From: Algoriphagus lutimaris
Lineage (GTDB): Bacteria > Bacteroidota > Bacteroidia > Cytophagales > Cyclobacteriaceae
Assembly (NCBI RefSeq): GCF_017051705.1
Contig: NZ_JAFIDJ010000001.1
Coordinates: forward strand, 2,261,786 to 2,325,785
Length of the DNA stretch: 64,000 bases
Direction of reading: 5' to 3'
Position numbers and translations under genes: made by a program. The notes under the pieces were generated by a model that worked only from the letters and a program-made list of their open reading frames with translations, ran no database searches and was not told where the DNA came from. Positions 39,850 through 49,195 of the stretch are shown here, piece by piece; position 1 is the first letter of the stretch, and each line of letters begins with the position of its first letter.

Positions 39850-40833
39850 TCAATTGATAGGTATGGCTATTGGACGCATAGGAGCCGCGGAAGCACCCCG
39901 TAACTTCAGCGAACTACCTATAAAAGCAAATTCATAAACCCCATCATGAGCTAAACTCTCCAGATTCATCTGCTCCATAAACATCACGCCTTTCTCTGCA
40001 AGCAAATAGGTATGGACAGGTACCCAATTGTCCTCCCGCTCAGGAGGGAAAGCTTCGAAACTTAAATTATCCGCACCCAAAAGCATAATTTGCTGCTCCT
40101 CCACCAACCATTTAACCGCGTCTAGGTTGATCCCCGGATAGTTATCCAAGTACTGATCTGCATGCTCATAATGCCTTGCCTGCCCTGTTCGAATGAGGAC
40201 TATATCCCCCTTCTGTAGTTTTGTTTTTTGCCTTTCTAGAGCTGATTTTAAATCAGAAGAGTTGATTCGATAATTTTCCGGCAGCTGATCGACCTCTTTC
40301 AAAGCTAAGATGTCAATTAAAACACCCCTTCCAATTATGGGAGGAATGGTTTCTGCACCTGTTTTTTTCCAGCCTTTATCCCCCAAATACTCATCAGCTG
40401 AAAAACCATTCCAGATTTTACCATTCAACCCAAAATGATTCAATGCATCAATATGGGTTCCCATGTGGGTATACATGGAAATGGCATCCCCAGTATAGCT
40501 GACTTTGGCATTCATCCCCTCTCCCATCCCATTGGGATTGTCAATGAGCGTACCTTTTGGAGTGTGGGTCATCCAGAATTGATAGGCAGGATCTCCCAAG
40601 GCATGAAAGCTGGGCATCCCCACGAAATATTCCACACTTAAGTCATAGATTTTTCCTGATCTAACATGGCTTAATACCTCTAATCGGCTCTGATCGCTCA
40701 TCAAGTTTAGCGTACCAATTTCATCATTGGGCCCCCAAGGGCTTTTTCCAACTTTCTCAGTTGACATGACCTGTGAAAGGCCAAACCCTGCCTGACAAGT
40801 CAGAAAATAGGAAATGAACATCCATTTTTTCAT
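39850..40833 (-). CDS. Cyclase-family hydrolase (kynurenine-formamidase-like), exported
   Basis: A 327-residue protein with a signal peptide (MKKWMFISYFLTCQAGFGLS). The metal motif HMGTHIDALNHFG is the HxGTHxDxPxH site of cyclase/KynB enzymes; PIIGRGVLIDI, GDIVLIRTG and LLGADNLSFEAFP support the family. It may open or hydrolyse an amide or lactone ring in the periplasm. First gene of the five-gene operon (37345-40833), divergent from the Crp/Fnr regulator; operator candidates lie in the 101-base gap. Confidence 0.88.
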   Translation of the reverse strand: MKKWMFISYFLTCQAGFGLSQVMSTEKVGKSPWGPNDEIGTLNLMSDQSRLEVLSHVRSGKIYDLSVEYFVGMPSFHALGDPAYQFWMTHTPKGTLIDNPNGMGEGMNAKVSYTGDAISMYTHMGTHIDALNHFGLNGKIWNGFSADEYLGDKGWKKTGAETIPPIIGRGVLIDILALKEVDQLPENYRINSSDLKSALERQKTKLQKGDIVLIRTGQARHYEHADQYLDNYPGINLDAVKWLVEEQQIMLLGADNLSFEAFPPEREDNWVPVHTYLLAEKGVMFMEQMNLESLAHDGVYEFAFIGSSLKLRGASAAPMRPIAIPIN

Positions 40834-40859: not shown

Positions 40860-40874
40860 GACCTTTCAAAGGTC
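40860..40874. promoter_or_regulatory. Palindrome in the cyclase-crp divergent promoter
   Basis: GACCTTTCAAAGGTC is a perfect 7+1+7 inverted repeat between the divergent genes, 27 bases upstream of the cyclase ATG. A second interrupted palindrome TTAAGT-n5-ACTTAA (40907-40923) overlaps the shared motif at 40919. Confidence 0.4.
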
Positions 40875-40918
40875 CGCCAATTACAATCCCTGTCGAATGA
40901 CTTGGATTAAGTCTTTCA

Positions 40919-40934
40919 CTTAACCTAGATCAAG
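40919..40934 (+). promoter_or_regulatory. Shared 15-bp operator motif, copy 1
   Basis: CTTAACCTAGATCAAG directly abuts the ATG of the Crp/Fnr gene (40935) and lies 86 bases upstream of the cyclase start. It is an imperfect palindrome (12 of 16 positions) and matches three other intergenic copies. Confidence 0.5.
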
Positions 40935-41513
40935 ATGAATCCTGAACTCCTATGGCAAAGTCTGGAGAAATATATCTCACTCTCTGAGTCTGAAAAGGCA
41001 TTGATCCTATCCAAACTCAGCACCCGCAACTTCAAAAAAGGTCAGTTTTTGGTTTTTGCAGGCGGCAAAAGTAAAGTGACCAATTTCGTCATTGAAGGGT
41101 CTGTAATGGCTTATTTTACCGATACCAAAGGGCTGGATCATATCATCCAATTTGCCTTTGAAGGTTGGTGGATTAGTGATTTGAAGAGTTTTATCACCCA
41201 GAAAGAAGCCATTCTCAATGTTCAGGCCTTGGAAGAGAGCACTGTTTTGGAACTATCCTTCGAGGACCTAGAAGAACTATATGGTCAAATCCCTCAATTG
41301 GAACGATTTTTCAGGGTCATCACTCAGCGTGCTTTTGTGGCCTTTCAAGAGCGAATTTTGGAAACCATCAGTCAATCTGCCGAAGAACGATACCGTGCAT
41401 TCCATGATAAATTCAGAAAGTACGAAACCCGTATTCCTCAGAAACTGATTGCCTCTTATTTGGGAGTCACTCCAGAGTTTTTCAGCCGAATGAAAAAGAA
41501 AATGGAATGGTAA
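40935..41513 (+). CDS. Crp/Fnr-family transcriptional regulator
   Basis: A 192-residue cNMP-binding-fold regulator. The N-terminal effector domain reads LSTRNFKKGQFLVFAGGKSKVTNFVIEGSV and the C terminus is a short helix-turn-helix IPQKLIASYLGVTPEFFSRMKKK. No FNR cysteine cluster and no full cAMP site are present, as is usual in the Bacteroidota group. The start is preceded at once by a palindromic motif, so it may repress itself and the divergent cyclase operon. Confidence 0.88.
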   Translation: MNPELLWQSLEKYISLSESEKALILSKLSTRNFKKGQFLVFAGGKSKVTNFVIEGSVMAYFTDTKGLDHIIQFAFEGWWISDLKSFITQKEAILNVQALEESTVLELSFEDLEELYGQIPQLERFFRVITQRAFVAFQERILETISQSAEERYRAFHDKFRKYETRIPQKLIASYLGVTPEFFSRMKKKMEW

Positions 41514-41521
41514 TCCACTCT

Positions 41522-41983
41522 CTACCAAAATTCCGTGATCCTAAAAATCTTTTCATCCTTAAATTCAAATACTGCCATTTCACCATCTTCCTTGTGAGGA
41601 TTTGGGTTGGTTTTAGATATAAATTTCTTACTGACAGCAAGAGCATTTTTTCCTGATATAACCGAAAACACATGGATATCATAAATTTTCCCATCGTATC
41701 CTCCTGATTCCAAATTTCGGCGATATCCATTGTACAAATCTTCTCTGGTATACACTCCGCCATATTCCTGATGAACATAGGTGAAGTCTTCAGAAAACAA
41801 TTGGAATAATCTATCAACATCCTTTATATCAGATTCTTTACTGAAAATTTTCAGATTGAGCTGATAATACTGATTTAGCAATTCTTCCTGTTGAGATCTT
41901 TCATTGCTTTCAGTTTGTTTTTGGGGTTTCATATCCAAAAACCCCAAATTCAGCAAAAAAGCGATGGTTAAAGCTATTTTCAT
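41522..41983 (-). CDS. Secreted SnoaL/DUF4440-like (NTF2 fold) protein
   Basis: A 153-residue exported protein (signal about 1-18). The body reads EELLNQYYQLNLKIFSKESDIKDVDRLFQLFSEDFTYVHQEYGGVYTREDLYNGY, the small NTF2-like fold with a pocket, as in SnoaL and DUF4440 proteins. It lies between two Crp/Fnr genes, ends 8 bases after the first, and is convergent with it. Function unknown. Confidence 0.72.
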   Translation of the reverse strand: MKIALTIAFLLNLGFLDMKPQKQTESNERSQQEELLNQYYQLNLKIFSKESDIKDVDRLFQLFSEDFTYVHQEYGGVYTREDLYNGYRRNLESGGYDGKIYDIHVFSVISGKNALAVSKKFISKTNPNPHKEDGEMAVFEFKDEKIFRITEFW

Positions 41984-42014
41984 TTCATGTACTATTTATT
42001 GTGTGATGGAATAA

Positions 42015-42029
42015 GGTTCTAATCGAACC
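42015..42029. promoter_or_regulatory. Palindrome upstream of the second Crp/Fnr gene
   Basis: GGTTC-taatc-GAACC lies 61 bases before the regulator ATG and 32 bases from the divergent SnoaL-like gene start. Candidate operator for either. Confidence 0.3.
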
Positions 42030-42089
42030 CCATTTGTATAAAATCAAAGTTTAACCTTCCCATATCTTTGAAAATGGTTATTTTCGGCA

Positions 42090-42662
42090 ATGGTCACGAG
42101 AAGTTCAGCCCTTTTTGATATTCCTTTAACTGATGAAGAAGCTCAATTGATTGATGAGTTGATCCCCATTAAAACCTTCAAAAAAGGAACCATTCTTTTA
42201 AAAGAAGGCCAGGTGGCCAGAGAATCCTATTTCAATCTCAAAGGTCTGGTCCGCTTGTATTACTTGATAGAAGGAGAGGAAAAGACCATTCACTTTTATG
42301 AGGAGTTTCAGCCTATTGCCTCACTTTCCAGCTATTTGAATAAGACTCCGGCCAATCATTATCTCGAATGTGTAGAAGACACCACGTTGACCATTCTGAG
42401 TTACGACAGTGAACAGGAATTGATCAAGAAAGTACCAGTTTTTGAATCGGTTTGTCGGGTATCCATAGAGCAGGAATTTGGGAAAAACCAACAAATGCTT
42501 GCCGATTACATGATCAAATCACCAGAGAAACGCTATCTGGAACTTCAAGAAAATCAACCGGAACTACTAAATCGAGTTCCTCAATACATTCTAGCTTCTT
42601 ACCTTGGAGTAAAACCTGAATCACTTAGCCGAATTCGGAAAAGATTGGCGACCAAAACCTGA
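42090..42662 (+). CDS. Crp/Fnr-family transcriptional regulator, second copy
   Basis: A 190-residue regulator with the cyclic-nucleotide fold (PIKTFKKGTILLKEGQVARESYFNLKGLVRLYYLIEGEEKTIHFYEEF) and a C-terminal helix-turn-helix YILASYLGVKPESLSRIRKRL. It is the Bacteroidota-type Crp/Fnr without metal cysteines and is only loosely similar to the neighbour at 40935. Its stop directly abuts the stop of the convergent alcohol dehydrogenase remnant with no gap. Confidence 0.9.
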   Translation: MVTRSSALFDIPLTDEEAQLIDELIPIKTFKKGTILLKEGQVARESYFNLKGLVRLYYLIEGEEKTIHFYEEFQPIASLSSYLNKTPANHYLECVEDTTLTILSYDSEQELIKKVPVFESVCRVSIEQEFGKNQQMLADYMIKSPEKRYLELQENQPELLNRVPQYILASYLGVKPESLSRIRKRLATKT

Positions 42663-43621
42663 TTAAGCAACCAAAATACCCACATTGCCAGCTTTTTTAC
42701 CCTTTTCTACATAGGCATGGGCAGCCGGAATTTCATAGAATGAATAAACTCGATCTAAGTAAGGTTTAATTTTTTTTGCCTCCAAAAGATACTGAATCAC
42801 TATTAAGTCAGACTTCTTTTGGTCTGCTATTCCTACTAGGATCTGCTCCTTTTTACCCTGAAATTTTTGAATCATCAGATCCAGATAATCAGACAAAGAG
42901 GCATCATTGGAAAGATACATACCATTGTTTTTCAATAAATGCTTGATTTCCCTGAAGGAAGTCTTGCCCACCGCATTAATGATCAGGTCAAATTTTTCAG
43001 ACACCTTGGTAAAATCCTCTTTATCATAGCTAATTACTTGATCTGCCCCCATTTTTTTACCCAAATCGCATTTTTTGAACTGCACACACCCACCACATAA
43101 GCTTGCTTAACTTTTGCCAACTGGAGCATAGCTGAACCCACAGATCCAGACACTCCATGAATCAGTACTTTCATTCCGGGTTTAAGATTTGATTTTTGAA
43201 GAAAATGGTATGCCGAAAGGAATCCAACAGGTACTACTGCAGCTTCTTCAAAACTTAACCCCTTCGGGATTTTTGCCACAGGCATATCCCTATCCACAGC
43301 TACATATTCGGCGTAGGTTCCAGAGCTCATCCCTAAACTGCCAAAAATTTTATCTCCAACTTTGAACTCAGTTACTTCATTCCCAACTTCCTCTACAATT
43401 CCTGAGAATTCGTGACCTAAAAGAGGATTTTTAGGTTTAAACAGTCCCGCAAAAAAGCGGATCGGAAGCGGTTTTCCACTGCGGATTCTCCAATCTCCTG
43501 CCGTGACGGAAGTGGCGTGGATTTTCACCAAAAGCTCATTGGCTTTTGGCTCAGGTTTTTCCAGCGTATCGGGACTCAACACAGTCGGTTCCCCATATCT
43601 TTTGAAGGTAAATGCTTTCAT
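42663..43621 (-). pseudogene. MDR-family NAD(P)-dependent alcohol dehydrogenase/quinone oxidoreductase, frameshifted
   Basis: Residues 1-186 (MKAFTFKRYGEPTVLS..., GHEFSGIVEEVG, GVSGSVGSAMLQLAKV, VVGVCSSK) lie in one frame and the rest (CDLGKKMGADQVISYDKEDF to GNVGILVA) in another. Inserting one A in the six-A run (plus strand T at 43071-43076) restores a normal ~320-residue medium-chain reductase. It is either a pseudogene or a base-calling error. A copy of the shared operator lies at 43677, 56 bases upstream of the ATG, so it belonged to the local regulon. Confidence 0.8.
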
Positions 43622-43676
43622 TTTCAAACACTTTTGATTTACACTTCAAAAGTAAAACCCACTTCTCTCCCAAAAA

Positions 43677-43691
43677 TTGACCTTGGTTAAG
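43677..43691 (+). promoter_or_regulatory. Shared 15-bp operator motif, copy 2
   Basis: TTGACCTTGGTTAAG, 55 bases before the dehydrogenase ATG; reads CTTAACC toward the gene, the same orientation as the other copies. Confidence 0.5.
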
Positions 43692-43728
43692 AAGTGGATT
43701 TCTACACTAAAAGAATTAAATCAGGACT

Positions 43729-44162
43729 CTAGTGCCAAATGCAAAATAGGAAAAGGTTTGCCTGTGGATCCAATTCAGAACGCCCGATTACCTTAAACCC
43801 ACAGTGCAAATAAAATCCCAAAGCCTGCTCGTTCAGCTCATTGACGTCTAATTTCTCTACTCCCATTTCATTAATAGCATATTCTAGGCAAAGTCTTCCC
43901 AGTCCTTTGCCAAAAGCATCCGAATGTAAAAACAACATCTCCAAATTTCCTTCAGCCACTCCTAAAAAGCCTAAGATTTGACCTTTTGAATCACGAACAA
44001 CCCTAAATCCACCGCATAAAAATAAGTGTCTAAGATCAAGGGTTTGAAGTATGCAATATCCTCTTCTGAGAGAAAACCATGGGTTTTCCTTACTGAATCC
44101 TCCCAAATCTCTACCAAAATTGGAAAGAAAGAGGGATCACATGTTTCTAGTGAATAATTCAC
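43729..44162 (-). pseudogene. GNAT acetyltransferase, frameshifted
   Basis: MNYSLETCDPSFFPILVEIWEDSVRKTHGFLSEED... in the first frame runs to TYFYAVDL, then the second frame goes on with RVVRDSKGQILGFLGVAEGNLEMLFLHSDAFGKGLGRLCLEYAINEMGVEKLDVNELNEQALGFYLHCGF. One extra T in the run at plus-strand 44005-44007 restores a normal ~144-residue GNAT. It begins 15 bases after the serine hydrolase gene, so it is the last gene of that operon. Confidence 0.78.
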
Positions 44163-44177
44163 TTTGCAGGGATTTTA

Positions 44178-45260
44178 TTAAAATTCGTCTAAAGCCAGTT
44201 TGGCAATTTCCCGGGTGATCACCGTAGGAGAGTTACAATCGCAATTACTCAAGCCTACTACATAAATATCCTGATCTGGCAGATAAACTCCCATAGATTT
44301 AAATCCAAAGACGCTACCCCCATGTTCTCTGACCGGAACTCCTTCGAAATCTTTGAGGTGCCAGCCATACCCATAAGTCAAGATCTCCCCATTAGATAAA
44401 GTGCCCGGAGCAAAAGCCTTTTGAAGGGTTTCTTGCTTTAGAAGCACATCCGTATTCAAGGCATTTTGCCAAATCAACAGATCATCAACGGTAGACATCA
44501 ACGAACCAGAGGCATAGGGAATGGTCAGGCTCACCCACATTTTATTAGTATATCCATTCCGATCGTGATAACCATAGGCACGCATTTTCACCAATTCCCG
44601 ATCGGAAGCATAGCGGGAATTCCTCATTCCCAATATTTGAAAAATTCGCTGCTCTATAAAATCCTCATAGCTCATACCTGAAACTAGCTCCATCACATAG
44701 CCCAAAACCACATAACCTGAATTATTGTATTCAAATTTTTCCCCCGGAAGAAAATCCACAGGTTCATCCTTGAAAAAATCAACCATCTCCTTCGGACTTT
44801 GATCAGTTCTGGCAATCGACATAATAGATCTCATTTTTGTGAAATCCTTGATTCCAGATGTATGATTCAATAAATGTTGAATGGTCAACTTTTCCCCCTG
44901 GACAGGAAAATCAGGGATGTACTTTCTCACATCATCCTCTATGCTGAGCTTTCCTTCTTCTTCCAGAATCAATATACCTACTGCAGTAAACTGCTTGGTC
45001 ATGGACCCGATCTGAAAAACATTTTCAGGAACCATTGCTACATCCAATTCCAAATTGGACATACCAAAGGCTTTTCGGTATACAGGATTACCATCTTTTG
45101 CTACCATAAAAACCGCTCCCGGTCCTTCCGATTCAAACATCTCTTTCAAAAGACTGTCAATTTTTGTTTCCAAGGATTGTGCTTGAAGGGATTCGTTTAG
45201 TAGTAAAGAACAAGTCCAAATAGTCAAAAAGGCTAAACAGAATTTTCTAAATGTGTGCAT
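44178..45260 (-). CDS. Secreted serine hydrolase (beta-lactamase/DD-peptidase family, class C-like)
   Basis: A 360-residue exported protein (signal about 1-28). The catalytic set of the beta-lactamase-related family is complete: SMTK (Ser86, Lys89), YNN (Tyr178, Asn180) and HGG near 315. Most such proteins are peptidases or esterases, so antibiotic resistance should not be inferred. Third gene of an operon of two serine hydrolases around an amidohydrolase; 13 bases after the amidohydrolase gene. Confidence 0.88.
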   Translation of the reverse strand: MHTFRKFCLAFLTIWTCSLLLNESLQAQSLETKIDSLLKEMFESEGPGAVFMVAKDGNPVYRKAFGMSNLELDVAMVPENVFQIGSMTKQFTAVGILILEEEGKLSIEDDVRKYIPDFPVQGEKLTIQHLLNHTSGIKDFTKMRSIMSIARTDQSPKEMVDFFKDEPVDFLPGEKFEYNNSGYVVLGYVMELVSGMSYEDFIEQRIFQILGMRNSRYASDRELVKMRAYGYHDRNGYTNKMWVSLTIPYASGSLMSTVDDLLIWQNALNTDVLLKQETLQKAFAPGTLSNGEILTYGYGWHLKDFEGVPVREHGGSVFGFKSMGVYLPDQDIYVVGLSNCDCNSPTVITREIAKLALDEF

Positions 45261-45273
45261 TTTTATTTTTGGT

Positions 45274-46623
45274 TTAGTTTTTATTCAAATCTGATAAAGC
45301 ATTGATTTCCAACACATCTCCCAATAGGGAATCCAAAGCGGCCCGATCAAAAAGTCTCCCATTTAAGATAACTGCTGATATTTCCTGAGTAGCTCGGATA
45401 TCTTCCAAGGGATTGGAATTCAGAAGGACGAGGTTAGCATTTTTTCCAGGAGAAATTGTCCCTTCAAGAGCCTGAGTTCCTAAGTATCGGGCTGGACTTA
45501 CCGTGGCAGCTTTCAAAATCTCAATTGGTTCCATCCCCAAGTCTTGTAATAGCTCCATTTCTTCATGAACCGAAAAGCCTGGAACCACTAAGCCAAAGGT
45601 GTCGGAACCAATCATAAGCGGTACACCTGCATCAGAAAGTTGGAGTGTAAAACCCTTCATCCACTCTAGCCATTCGCTTAATAATAATTCGGCATCTTTA
45701 CCGTAAAGCACCTTCCCCTTCAAGTCTTTTCGATACGGATTTTCATCCGAAAGCCAATAATTACGATCACCCGAAAGCATGTATTTTGCATAATCCGCTT
45801 CTCCTAACTTCTTGAATTCAGAATCATTGAGATAATGGATAATCCGTTCGAATACCTTTAATGTAGGTACTATGGTAATCCCACTGGTTTTAATTTCCTC
45901 TACCACTGAGGTCATAAAATTCTCGTCATTTCGTTGTGTTTCCCCAAAGAGATATACAAATTCCTCCACATGTTCGATGGACTTCATTCTTAGGGAATAA
46001 TCTAAACCCATTGCTCTTTGTGCATGCCCGATGACTGAAAGCCCTTCTTTTTCGGCTTCCTCCAAAAGACCTTGGTAGATATTTTCCGGAAGATTGTCAG
46101 CGATTTTCAGGAAATCATATCCCTTTTCCACATTGCTTTGGACCATTTCTCTCGCTTCCTCCTCACTTTGCAGCATGGAGGAATTCAAGTAAGGCCCTGT
46201 TGTGAAATATCTGGGCCCCAGAATTTCACCCGAATTAATTTTCTCTCGGATACCCACCTGATCCTGCCAGTCATATTCTGCCATATTCCGGACTGTGGTC
46301 ACCCCATTGGCTAGTAAAAGATTTAGATCTCGTTCGATCCCTCCTTGAGGATTTCTCCAATGAAAGTGCATCTCGTGAAATCCTGGTATCATAAATTTTC
46401 CCTGAGCATCCACTACTTGGTATAAATCCGATTTCGGATTATTGGATGCAGCTTGAATACTCAGAATTTTCCCATTTGCAATTAATACTTGTTGGTCTTT
46501 CAATATCTCTTTGGAGGTCATACTAATCACATTTACATGATTAACCAACAGTGTATCCGCATATTGATTAACAGGAACCCCATTCAGAAAAGGCCATAGA
46601 ATCCCCAGCATGAATAATTTCAT
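45274..46623 (-). CDS. Amidohydrolase-family protein (imidazolonepropionase-like), secreted
   Basis: A 449-residue metal-dependent hydrolase with a short signal peptide (cut near GVPVNQ). Metal ligands are visible: HEMHFHWR (HxH), VIGHAQRAM, SIEHVEEF and GSDTFG; the C-terminal part GTISPGKNANLVLLNSNPLEDI is the usual return beta sheet. Such enzymes cleave amides or dipeptides, for example prolidase-like ones. It is enclosed between two serine hydrolase genes in one operon, which suggests joint breakdown of one peptide or amide substrate. Confidence 0.88.
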   Translation of the reverse strand: MKLFMLGILWPFLNGVPVNQYADTLLVNHVNVISMTSKEILKDQQVLIANGKILSIQAASNNPKSDLYQVVDAQGKFMIPGFHEMHFHWRNPQGGIERDLNLLLANGVTTVRNMAEYDWQDQVGIREKINSGEILGPRYFTTGPYLNSSMLQSEEEAREMVQSNVEKGYDFLKIADNLPENIYQGLLEEAEKEGLSVIGHAQRAMGLDYSLRMKSIEHVEEFVYLFGETQRNDENFMTSVVEEIKTSGITIVPTLKVFERIIHYLNDSEFKKLGEADYAKYMLSGDRNYWLSDENPYRKDLKGKVLYGKDAELLLSEWLEWMKGFTLQLSDAGVPLMIGSDTFGLVVPGFSVHEEMELLQDLGMEPIEILKAATVSPARYLGTQALEGTISPGKNANLVLLNSNPLEDIRATQEISAVILNGRLFDRAALDSLLGDVLEINALSDLNKN

Positions 46624-46654
46624 TTTATTTTTGATTTGATATGTTGTTAGGAAA

Positions 46655-48322
46655 TTAGTTAAGGCGTGAAAGCTTCAAGTTTTTAACCCGCCCATTCGAC
46701 AGCATTACTTCTGCTGCTTTTCCTTCTGGATTAAGGACAAATTCAACGGAAAACACTGGCCAAGCCCCACGAAACGCATTAGCGGTCATTCTTTCCAAAG
46801 GAATTTCACCATGTCGTGGATGGTAGACCATTAAATTCTCTTCATTAATTTTGAACCAATAAGAAGCCTGTAATTCCACACTGTAATACTCCCCTTCCAA
46901 ATCCATCAGGTCTGATGCCGAAAAGGAATTTTCTCCAAGTGGAACCCAGATATTTACAATGCCTTCCTTTGAAAGCAATTTGGCGCTGCTTACTACTCCA
47001 TTCTGAACCTCAAAGCTCAATTTTCGCCCGTCTGACTCTAAAACAGAAAATTCTCCGTTCCCCAAATGCAGAAGTATACGTTCCAAAGTCCCAATCTTTG
47101 CAATGAGCTTCTGTTCCTTTTCGAGGATTTGGATAACCTGCTTATCATAAGTATCCCAGTAACTCCCTTCAAGAAGATTTGCTTGAATAGGTTCAATATT
47201 TTTTACCTCTGCTTTATCAGATGAGATCGGGCTGATGGAGGTTACAGGCTTATTCAAAATAATTTCAGAAATTCCATTGAGTTTCTGTCCTAAATTGGAA
47301 GAACTGAAGTTGGAAAGGATCGAAATGCTCAGTTTCAAGTCTGGAAAAGTAGCAATCTGAGCTCGAAAACCACCGATTGATCCAGAATGATGGATTCTTC
47401 TCTGTCCACCAAATTGATCTACAATTAAACCGAAAGCATAATTGCCAGCCTGACCATTGGAATAAAGACCAATTTCCTTCATCTGCTCAAATGCATTTTC
47501 CCAGCCAGGTTTGGGTTTATAAAGGTTTTTTGCCCAAATGAGTAAATCTTCCGAGGAAGAATGGATATTTCCTGCACCGGTATAGTTCCAATAATCCAAT
47601 GCTCTTTCAAAAATTCTATCGTGACTGTGGTAATAGGAAGACGCATTGCCAGGAACTATGCGGGTATAATTATCCTCGACATAGGTATGCTCCAACCCAA
47701 GAGGTTCAAAAACCTCGCTTGCCATCCATTCAGCAAATGACTTCCCAGAAAGTCGCTCTACGACCATAGCCATCAGCACATAGCCTGTATTGCAATATCC
47801 ATATCGTTCTCCAACCGGATAATTCAGATCCTTTTGCAAGGTCACAAATCGGAATACATCTTCATTGGATCGGACATCATCCCCTCTCCATCCTGCCAAA
47901 CCCAACAAATCATGAACACTTCTCAAACCACTGGTGTGATAGATTAAATGTCGAAAATTAATCGGTTGCCTAAAATCAGGAATTTCAGGCAGGTATTCAT
48001 TGACCTCATCATCCAAGGAAAGAAGTCCCTTTTCTGCCATTCGCACGATTGCCATAGCCGTGAACTGTTTTGATACGGAGGCGATATTAAATAAGGTACT
48101 TGGGGTATTTGGAACTCCAAAATCCAAACTTGCAAGACCAAAAGCTTTAGAATAAATCATTTCCCCATCCTCCATAACACCCACTGACCCTCCAGGCATT
48201 CCCGGCTGATTCCACTCCTGAAATATAGAATCTAGTAGCGCTTCCTTTTCTGGACTCAACTGTGCATAGGAAATCCCAATAGCACTTATATATAAGGTAA
48301 CGATGAAAATGAGTTTTTTCAT
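46655..48322 (-). CDS. Secreted serine hydrolase with C-terminal DUF3471-like domain
   Basis: A 555-residue exported protein (signal about 1-20). The beta-lactamase-like domain has SVSK (Ser82, Lys85), YCNTGY (YxN) and HHSGSIGG (HxG); the ~150 C-terminal residues form lipocalin-like or DUF3471-type strands. ATG at 48322 gives a normal signal; an ATG ten codons earlier is also possible. First gene of the operon to 43729, with the shared operator 71 bases upstream. Confidence 0.87.
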   Translation of the reverse strand: MKKLIFIVTLYISAIGISYAQLSPEKEALLDSIFQEWNQPGMPGGSVGVMEDGEMIYSKAFGLASLDFGVPNTPSTLFNIASVSKQFTAMAIVRMAEKGLLSLDDEVNEYLPEIPDFRQPINFRHLIYHTSGLRSVHDLLGLAGWRGDDVRSNEDVFRFVTLQKDLNYPVGERYGYCNTGYVLMAMVVERLSGKSFAEWMASEVFEPLGLEHTYVEDNYTRIVPGNASSYYHSHDRIFERALDYWNYTGAGNIHSSSEDLLIWAKNLYKPKPGWENAFEQMKEIGLYSNGQAGNYAFGLIVDQFGGQRRIHHSGSIGGFRAQIATFPDLKLSISILSNFSSSNLGQKLNGISEIILNKPVTSISPISSDKAEVKNIEPIQANLLEGSYWDTYDKQVIQILEKEQKLIAKIGTLERILLHLGNGEFSVLESDGRKLSFEVQNGVVSSAKLLSKEGIVNIWVPLGENSFSASDLMDLEGEYYSVELQASYWFKINEENLMVYHPRHGEIPLERMTANAFRGAWPVFSVEFVLNPEGKAAEVMLSNGRVKNLKLSRLN

Positions 48323-48392
48323 AAACTTTCGCTGACTTGACCTTTTGATCATTATTTCAATTCAAATTTAAGATACCCAATTTCCTTTGACA

Positions 48393-48407
48393 TTGACTTA
48401 GGTTAAG
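48393..48407 (+). promoter_or_regulatory. Shared 15-bp operator motif, copy 3
   Basis: TTGACTTAGGTTAAG upstream of the serine hydrolase operon; with copy 4 it forms a perfect 11-bp inverted repeat, GGTTAAGAATT (48401-48411) and AATTCTTAACC (48440-48450). Confidence 0.5.
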
Positions 48408-48443
48408 AATTCATTTTTCTCTGATTTCTTGACGTTTTAAATT

Positions 48444-48458
48444 CTTAACCCAGATCAA
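48444..48458 (+). promoter_or_regulatory. Shared 15-bp operator motif, copy 4
   Basis: CTTAACCCAGATCAA, 47 bases before the DUF4386 ATG; mirror image of copy 3 in the same divergent promoter. Confidence 0.5.
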
Positions 48459-48505
48459 TTTTCAGCCTTTTTTTCCGCCTTAGGTTTGTGGAAAATTAGG
48501 ATAAA

Positions 48506-49195
48506 ATGAAAAATCTCATAGTTCAAAGCGACCGAAACCTGATTCTGGGGCTGACAGGCTTACTTTATTTACTAGTGATTGTTTGCGGACTTTCCAGTGA
48601 ACTGGGATTTCGGGAAGTTTTATTCCTGCCAGAAGATATCCAGCAGACGATGGAAAACATCCAAGAAAACCTGAACCTACTTCGACTTGGAGTCTCCCTA
48701 GACATGGTAATGGTATTGGCTGATATCGGTTTAGCCTGGTTCTTCTTCATCTTATTTCGGGAGAACTTTCCAAGATTATCCTATTTAGCTTCTTTTTTAA
48801 GACTGTTGCAGGCGGCAATTATTGGAATCAACCTGATCCATCTATTACAAATCCCAACCCTACTCCAGTTATTTTCTGATGTTGATGAATCCCTATTTGT
48901 AGCCCGACAAATAGGCTATCTGATTGAATCCCATCGCCTAGGCTATTTACTAAGCGCGATTCCTTTTGGGATGAGCTGTGTGACTTTGGGGTACATGATG
49001 TACAAATCCGGCTGGTTTTCACGACTTCTTGGAGCCATGGTATTGGTTGCGGGATTTTCCTATTTGATTGATTCCTTCACCAATATCCTTTTGCCAAAAT
49101 ATGCTAATTACAGTGATATTCTGGTATTGGCAACAGCCGTGATTACAGAATTATCTCTATGTATATATCTGATTTTTAAAGGAGTAAAACAATAA
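48506..49195 (+). CDS. DUF4386 family membrane protein
   Basis: A 229-residue protein with six hydrophobic segments (about 14-32, 50-72, 84-104, 134-155, 165-185, 200-222). NLILGLTGLLYLLVIVCGL at the start and YMMYKSGWFSRLLGAMVLVAGFSYLIDSF in the second half are typical of DUF4386. Function unknown. Divergent from the serine hydrolase operon and sharing its paired operator; the tautomerase gene follows after 27 bases. Confidence 0.85.
   Translation: MKNLIVQSDRNLILGLTGLLYLLVIVCGLSSELGFREVLFLPEDIQQTMENIQENLNLLRLGVSLDMVMVLADIGLAWFFFILFRENFPRLSYLASFLRLLQAAIIGINLIHLLQIPTLLQLFSDVDESLFVARQIGYLIESHRLGYLLSAIPFGMSCVTLGYMMYKSGWFSRLLGAMVLVAGFSYLIDSFTNILLPKYANYSDILVLATAVITELSLCIYLIFKGVKQ

Follow-up and report, generated by a model that had tools for sequence, protein, structure and literature searches.

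At class II promoters of Escherichia coli, FNR acts from TTGATnnnnATCAA at −41.5, and FNR sites lie at −41.5 ± 4 in 19 of the 23 activated promoters with a known start (cited portions of PMC3688515). HcpR and HcpR2 of Bacteroides and other bacteria are FNR-like regulators that often adjoin a small set of targets, with hcp as the target; the motif of HcpR2 is GTAACnnnnGTTAC, and part of the HcpR branch uses TTGACnnnnGTCAA and carries Ser or Pro instead of Arg at position 180. NssR of Campylobacter jejuni has a symmetric motif, TTAACnnnnGTTAA, and a globin gene as target (for these three regulators, cited portions of PMC1274295). Here we describe a 64,000-nucleotide (nt) stretch of Algoriphagus lutimaris (Cyclobacteriaceae; contig NZ_JAFIDJ010000001.1, positions 2,261,786 to 2,325,785), called the window below, in which two adjacent Crp/Fnr genes, crp1 and crp2, are accompanied by four copies of a 15-nt operator. 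We consider it probable that this island holds two activators that each control only neighbouring genes, Crp2 at three promoters with class II geometry and Crp1 at the promoter of a cyclase operon. The two regulator genes, the four operators, and the −7 boxes and genes of the three promoters are as follows (aa, amino acids).

40935..41513, + strand: crp1, 192-aa Crp/Fnr protein with a cNMP_binding domain
42090..42662, + strand: crp2, 190-aa Crp/Fnr protein, the strongest candidate for activating the three class II promoters
40919..40933, + strand: operator, exact 15-mer; site II (CTTAACCTAGATCAA), upstream box of the cyclase tandem, separated from the crp1 ATG by 1 nt
43677..43691, − strand: operator, exact 15-mer; CTTAACCAAGGTCAA of the dehydrogenase promoter, aligned in 8 orthologous promoters
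43647..43654, − strand: −7 box TACTTTTG of the dehydrogenase promoter, 22 nt past the operator
42663..43621, − strand: zinc-type dehydrogenase / quinone oxidoreductase, in two overlapping frames (42663-43085 and 43034-43621)
48393..48407, − strand: operator, exact 15-mer; CTTAACCTAAGTCAA of the serine-hydrolase operon promoter, aligned with 4 corresponding promoters
48363..48370, − strand: −7 box TAAATTTG of the serine-hydrolase operon promoter, 22 nt past the operator
46655..48352, − strand: serine hydrolase (beta-lactamase / D-aminopeptidase fold), first gene of its operon
45274..46623, − strand: amidohydrolase, second gene of the serine-hydrolase operon
44178..45260, − strand: second serine hydrolase, next same-strand gene after the amidohydrolase
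48444..48458, + strand: operator, exact 15-mer; CTTAACCCAGATCAA of the DUF4386 promoter, aligned in 8 orthologous promoters
48481..48488, + strand: −7 box TAGGTTTG of the DUF4386 promoter, 22 nt past the operator
48506..49195, + strand: DUF4386 protein

FNR is an oxygen-sensing Fe-S protein with an N-terminal cysteine cluster. Crp2, in contrast, has no cysteine among its first 30 residues, is only 190 aa long, and would serve a few neighbouring targets instead of a global regulon. The operator differs from that of E. coli FNR in its left half (TTAAC), its fixed orientation and its pairing with a Bacteroidota −7 box. The locus resembles HcpR and HcpR2 in that an FNR-like regulator adjoins a small target set, but the hybrid cluster protein family was found in none of the 10 island proteins scanned. 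The half-site TTAAC is held in common with NssR, whereas the second half is RTCAA here. The closest solved sequence relative of both proteins, and the top fold match, is 3dn7, a Crp-like protein of Cytophaga hutchinsonii (E values of 6e-28 and 6e-35), which the Protein Data Bank names just cyclic nucleotide binding regulatory protein.

The first-pass annotation had placed an imperfect palindrome at the four positions listed above. All four copies are exact, they are the sole exact matches in the 64 kb, and none arose in 100 dinucleotide shuffles of the window. Genome-wide (4.72 Mb), the exact sequence occurs 7 times, including the 4 copies in the window; of the three elsewhere, two are internal to long open frames and the third overlaps a frame at its 3' end. 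The four sites appear to mark a local regulon. Their distances to the ATG are 1 nt (40919), 55 nt (43677), 40 nt (48393; 70 nt to a second ATG) and 47 nt (48444), within the range of 0 to 86 bases first proposed. The further remark that no other full match was seen in the intergenic regions holds for exact 15-mers in the whole 64 kb, but a degenerate copy at 40897-40910 had been overlooked. Allowing up to 3 mismatches gave 39 matches in the window against 29.6 expected. This pattern was dropped as too loose, and only matches that are near-exact or tied to a −7 box are therefore taken as meaningful. Scans for E. coli-type promoters and terminators gave chance levels.

Inspection of the sequence downstream of the sites at 43677, 48393 and 48444 revealed a feature that had also been overlooked: exactly 22 nt separate each of them from TAnnTTTG, the −7 box of Bacteroidota. 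In a flavobacterium, the −7 box of sigma-A promoters occupies −12 to −5 (cited portions of PMC9723704), and a spacer of 22 nt therefore places the dyad centre at −41.5, the position of a class II activator. The three promoters thus match class II geometry, with the dyad 41.5 bp upstream of the predicted start implied by the −7 box. The −7 box lies 25 nt (43677), 10 nt (48393) and 17 nt (48444) before the start codon. In the promoter alignments, the bases separating the box and the −7 element vary more than the box itself; the −7 box reads TAAACTTG in two of the eight DUF4386 promoters, and an extra gene stands before the hydrolase in two of the four promoters aligned with that of the serine-hydrolase operon. 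When the genome was searched for the box followed by N22 and TAnnTTTG with up to 3 mismatches, 8 matches were found. Three were exact, all of them in the island, and five had three mismatches, one of these being the cyclase promoter; the reversed-pattern control gave 5 matches.

The same spacing recurs in relatives. Among 73 genomes of the genus, 10 contained a total of 22 exact composites with the 22-nt spacer, and the reversed control gave none. Among 295 genomes of the family, a composite with at most 1 mismatch was present in 64, against 5 control matches. We then let the spacer between TTAACNNANRTCAA and TAnnTTTG range from 8 to 38 nt in these 295 genomes. Of the 123 matches, 66 fell at 22 nt and 12 at 23 nt, and the other 45 were spread over the remaining 29 spacings (about 1.6 per bin). 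With the box flipped, 44 matches were obtained, only one each at 22 and 23 nt, so the box is oriented, with its RTCAA half toward RNA polymerase. A sample of the phylum gave 24 composites in 18 of 395 genomes and 1 control match. Palindromes sought without a motif beside other Crp/Fnr genes gave only a weak signal: with no more than 46 sites per offset, scores of at least 5 occurred at offset 30 (four) and at offsets 28 and 29 (one each). A relaxed box test took the place of this one and was run on loci obtained by protein search with Crp1 or Crp2 (L046-L093). In those of them without the strict motif, 64 pairs of a relaxed box and a relaxed −7 element were found, 7 at a spacer of 22 nt, 13 at 23 nt, and 1.6 per bin elsewhere.

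We examined how these composites are linked to Crp/Fnr genes by searching the stretches around the family matches with a Crp/Fnr profile built from 47 sequences. The on-spacing set comprised 82 matches, namely 75 of the 78 in the family histogram (our genome's own three being omitted) and 7 from the genus search. A Crp/Fnr gene was present in the stretch for 76 of the 82, within 5 kb for 70 and within 1 kb for 63, whereas it was present, as a weak match, for only 1 of the 45 off-spacing matches. Many boxes stand directly past the stop codon of the regulator gene and precede the next gene. A box was found at 100 of 120 Crp/Fnr genes, but most of this sample was chosen for having a box, and the count is not taken as a measure of frequency.

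Crp2 appears the likelier regulator of the dehydrogenase, serine-hydrolase and DUF4386 promoters, judging from how sites and genes co-occur. Orthologues of Crp2 (at least 75% identity) are present in 7 of the 73 genus genomes, and those of Crp1 (at least 76%) in 5. The exact 16-mer CTTAACCNARRTCAAT occurs in all seven Crp2 genomes (24 copies, 19 in the island) and in 3 of the 66 others (3 copies). The DUF4386 gene is found in the same seven genomes as Crp2. In three of them (G198, G330 and G350) Crp2 and its sites are present, with no Crp1 above 40% identity. Fisher's test for co-occurrence with the sites gave p values of 7e-8 for Crp2 and 9e-4 for Crp1, relatedness being ignored. The closest Crp2 proteins among named records (8 loci) are those of A. 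marincola, A. pacificus, Algoriphagus sp. CAU 1675, A. formosus, A. faecimaris, Lunatimonas salinarum, A. zhangzhouensis and Algoriphagus sp. PAP.12. A. pacificus, which comes from another collection and stands outside the genus genomes with a Crp2 match, has sites at the dehydrogenase, DUF4386 and cyclase genes and at the crp1 start. No such site was found at −41.5 of the −7-like TATCTTTG of crp2 itself, and thus there is no sign of Crp2 autoregulation.

The site at 40919 has a different setting. Each operator had been described as reading toward its downstream gene; for this one, the reading best supported is not toward crp1 but as the upstream box of a tandem with the degenerate copy at 40897-40910, facing the cyclase. 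The cyclase promoter consists of site II and the following features.

39850..40833, − strand: putative cyclase (PF04199), first gene of the Crp1-linked operon
40867..40874, − strand: −7 box GACCTTTG of the cyclase promoter, 22 nt past site I
40897..40910, − strand: site I (TTAATCCAAGTCAT) of the cyclase promoter, a weaker, degenerate copy

The centres of sites I and II are 23 bp apart. In the direction of crp1, site II has no TAnnTTTG at class II distance. The tandem adjoins crp1 in all seven Crp1 loci examined (the window, G307, G293, G240, G018, G319 and G303); the distant Crp1-like loci of G191 and G034 were outside this comparison. G319 has no Crp2 match at E 1e-25 and the best match in G303 is 43% identical; in both, the tandem boxes have diverged and the inner box is weak. 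The site ends differ as well, reading TC...AAT in 23 of 23 Crp2-type sites and AAG after all six copies of site II (window and L258-L265). Because the tandem is kept without a close Crp2 and the ends differ, we attribute the sites at 40919 and 40897 to Crp1 and those of the three class II promoters to Crp2. Crp1 is the leading candidate for control of the cyclase operon and may also regulate itself. The idea that Crp2 owns the cyclase and crp1 sites, the strict pattern having failed in G319 and G303, was dropped, as the same tandem is there in diverged form.

From the computed sites, their exact spacing and orientation, the restriction of the exact composite to the island, conservation, regulator co-occurrence and an FNR-type recognition helix, we infer binding, activation and the assignment of protein to site as follows. 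Crp2 would bind as a dimer to TCTTAACC-N-ARR-TCAAT, an FNR-like operator that is asymmetric and oriented, its RTCAA half lying closest to RNA polymerase. At −41.5 it would recruit the housekeeping RNA polymerase as a class II activator of the dehydrogenase gene, the serine-hydrolase/amidohydrolase operon and the DUF4386 gene. Crp1 would activate the cyclase operon from site I (40897, at −41.5) together with the stronger site II (40919), 23 bp further up. Because site II touches the start codon of crp1, its occupation may also limit crp1 expression.

It had been proposed at first pass that one dimeric Crp/Fnr protein could control all four sites and itself. A local regulon with an adjacent Crp/Fnr protein is borne out by geometry, island restriction, conservation and linkage, but we regard it as unlikely that one regulator, be it Crp1 or Crp2, binds all five sites in a single regulon in which crp1 is also controlled. 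All five sites do match one loose consensus, site II shares the 15-mer pattern with the three others, and where both proteins are present (the window, G307, G293, G240 and G018) both site sets lie in one island. However, the three promoters track Crp2, being present in G198, G330 and G350 without a Crp1 above 40% identity, while 40919 and 40897 track Crp1, their diverged tandem persisting in G319 and G303; the AAT and AAG ends separate the two sets, and no box stands at −41.5 before crp2. It seems very improbable that another of the nine proteins of this genome with PF00027 (cNMP_binding) matches acts in trans on a wider regulon, although the E-xx-S-R helix is common to most site-linked Crp/Fnr proteins examined and two further exact 16-mers lie elsewhere in the genome. 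The exact composite is restricted to the island, the 16-mer tracks Crp2 over the 73 genomes, and elsewhere in the family the composite adjoins whichever Crp/Fnr gene is local. We give hardly any credence to the sites being repressor operators or a structural repeat without a regulatory role. Site II abuts a start codon, where binding could block transcription, but the exact 22-23 nt phasing to the −7 box, the fixed orientation, and intervening bases that vary more than the box argue otherwise.

Several observations weigh against two activators with strictly local targets. Six of the 82 on-spacing matches have no Crp/Fnr gene in the stretch, one of them lying 242 nt from a contig end. In the phylum sample, a Crp/Fnr gene lies within 1.5 kb at only 9 of 21 composite loci (our own genome excluded), and the local rule is therefore claimed for the family only. 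Of the 24 exact 16-mers in the Crp2 genomes, five are located away from the island, and single copies occur in three genomes that lack Crp2. The co-occurrence counts take no account of relatedness, and the Crp2 proteins form two identity groups (90-94% and 75-77%), which may share ancestry or transfer. Finally, the operators of Crp1 and Crp2 are so alike that the split could reflect cross-talk.

The two proteins themselves are consistent with a role as Crp/Fnr regulators. Both match PF00027 above the cut-off, and the Crp2 model and its fold match have the overall Crp/Fnr fold, including the dimer helix and a C-terminal helix-turn-helix. No Pfam helix-turn-helix family was matched at E 0.001, and the Crp2 model ends with the recognition helix, with no strands past residue 104. 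CRP carries a C-terminal wing, which the model would thus lack. Neither protein reaches the cut-off of the NCBIfam Fnr family (38.8 bits for Crp1 against a cut-off of 228, Crp2 unmatched) or that of the CRP equivalog (36.5 bits against 266, Crp2 unmatched). When Crp1 was aligned to A. fischeri FNR, its recognition helix matched E-xx-S-R. Among 73 strict-site regulators, E is conserved in 71, S in 72 and R in 71. Crp2 has Pro-Glu at what we take to be positions 180 and 181. Residues 180 and 181 have been tied to motif bases, Ser or Pro at 180 accompanying TTGACnnnnGTCAA (cited portions of PMC1274295). The Pro-Glu of Crp2 thus fits the RTCAA half. A conserved cysteine as a general sensor was considered and rejected, a cysteine being present at one alignment column in 24 of the 73 strict-site regulators, which is too few.

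In L. salinarum, A. pacificus, A. zhangzhouensis and PAP.12, the dehydrogenase and DUF4386 genes diverge from a common promoter region, in which two sites lie 50-52 bp apart. The window and its closest kin have a hydrolase/amidohydrolase block between the two genes, with the second box at its DUF4386-side end. We read this arrangement as a hydrolase block that was probably inserted into, and captured by, a two-gene regulon. The dehydrogenase is a single 319-aa frame in L111-L114 and is split in the window, which would reflect either a faulty assembly or a frameshift that arose recently in a target of the regulon itself. The GNAT-like gene at 43729-44106, possibly decaying in some strains, encodes 125 aa (TTG start) in the window, 147 aa in L111 and L112, and 72 aa in L113.

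Downstream genes were scanned with Pfam for 37 of 79 distinct family genes, near-duplicates having been thinned, and for the DUF4386 gene of the window; 3 of the 82 matches gave no downstream frame. Zinc-type dehydrogenases (6), DUF4386 proteins (5), SDRs (4) and pirins (2) recurred, and LigB dioxygenase, DJ-1, DoxX and proline dehydrogenase were found once each. Genes resembling those for nitroreductase, glyoxalase and DJ-1, named by inspection and not by family search, adjoin the cyclase. The downstream families and the neighbours of the cyclase suggest reactive carbonyl or quinone stress as a possible signal. For the Cyclobacteriaceae, and probably more of the Bacteroidota, we hold it evenly balanced whether there is a large class of short, apparently wingless Crp/Fnr local activators that each use an asymmetric, oriented, FNR-like box at −41.5 of the next gene, whose targets lean to quinone, aldehyde and aromatic detoxification (dehydrogenases, SDRs, pirin, LigB dioxygenase, DJ-1, DoxX, DUF4386), a reactive electrophile being maybe the shared trigger. 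If so, the regulon of each orphan regulator could be read from sequence by one rule (one regulator, an oriented box, class II spacing and the adjacent gene), which would yield testable regulator-promoter pairs for many Crp/Fnr paralogues of Bacteroidota. It would also tie the DUF4386 family, whose function is unknown, to a specific candidate activator, and predict an activator-dependent promoter class with a measurable spacing rule in a phylum whose promoters are unlike those of E. coli. Among the matches listed, seen as open-access titles and the starts of abstracts, none described this operator or a local Crp/Fnr rule in Bacteroidota.

Twelve composites of the phylum sample (L237, L244-L250 and L254-L257) have no Crp/Fnr gene within 1.5 kb, and the right half is ACATCAA in eight of them; they may mark a non-local regulator in other families. 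In G191, a composite (L163, 5001-5044) precedes a DUF4386-like gene in a stretch without a Crp/Fnr gene. A Crp2-like gene (60% identical, in L127) lies about 16 kb away, and the DUF4386-like gene is possibly a remote target of that same Crp2-like regulator. At ten loci (L124, L125, L132, L134, L156, L157, L160, L165, L166 and L173), the box TTAACATAGGTCAATTTT, as variants in L132 and L160, precedes a gene of 86-88 aa. A Crp/Fnr gene adjoins the box in nine of the ten, L165 being cut by a contig end, which suggests a second widespread regulator-target pair. In four genus genomes (L117, L118, L119 and L120), a Crp/Fnr gene is followed directly by a class II-spaced box and a pirin-like gene, and both representatives scanned (L117 and L119) gave a pirin match in Pfam.

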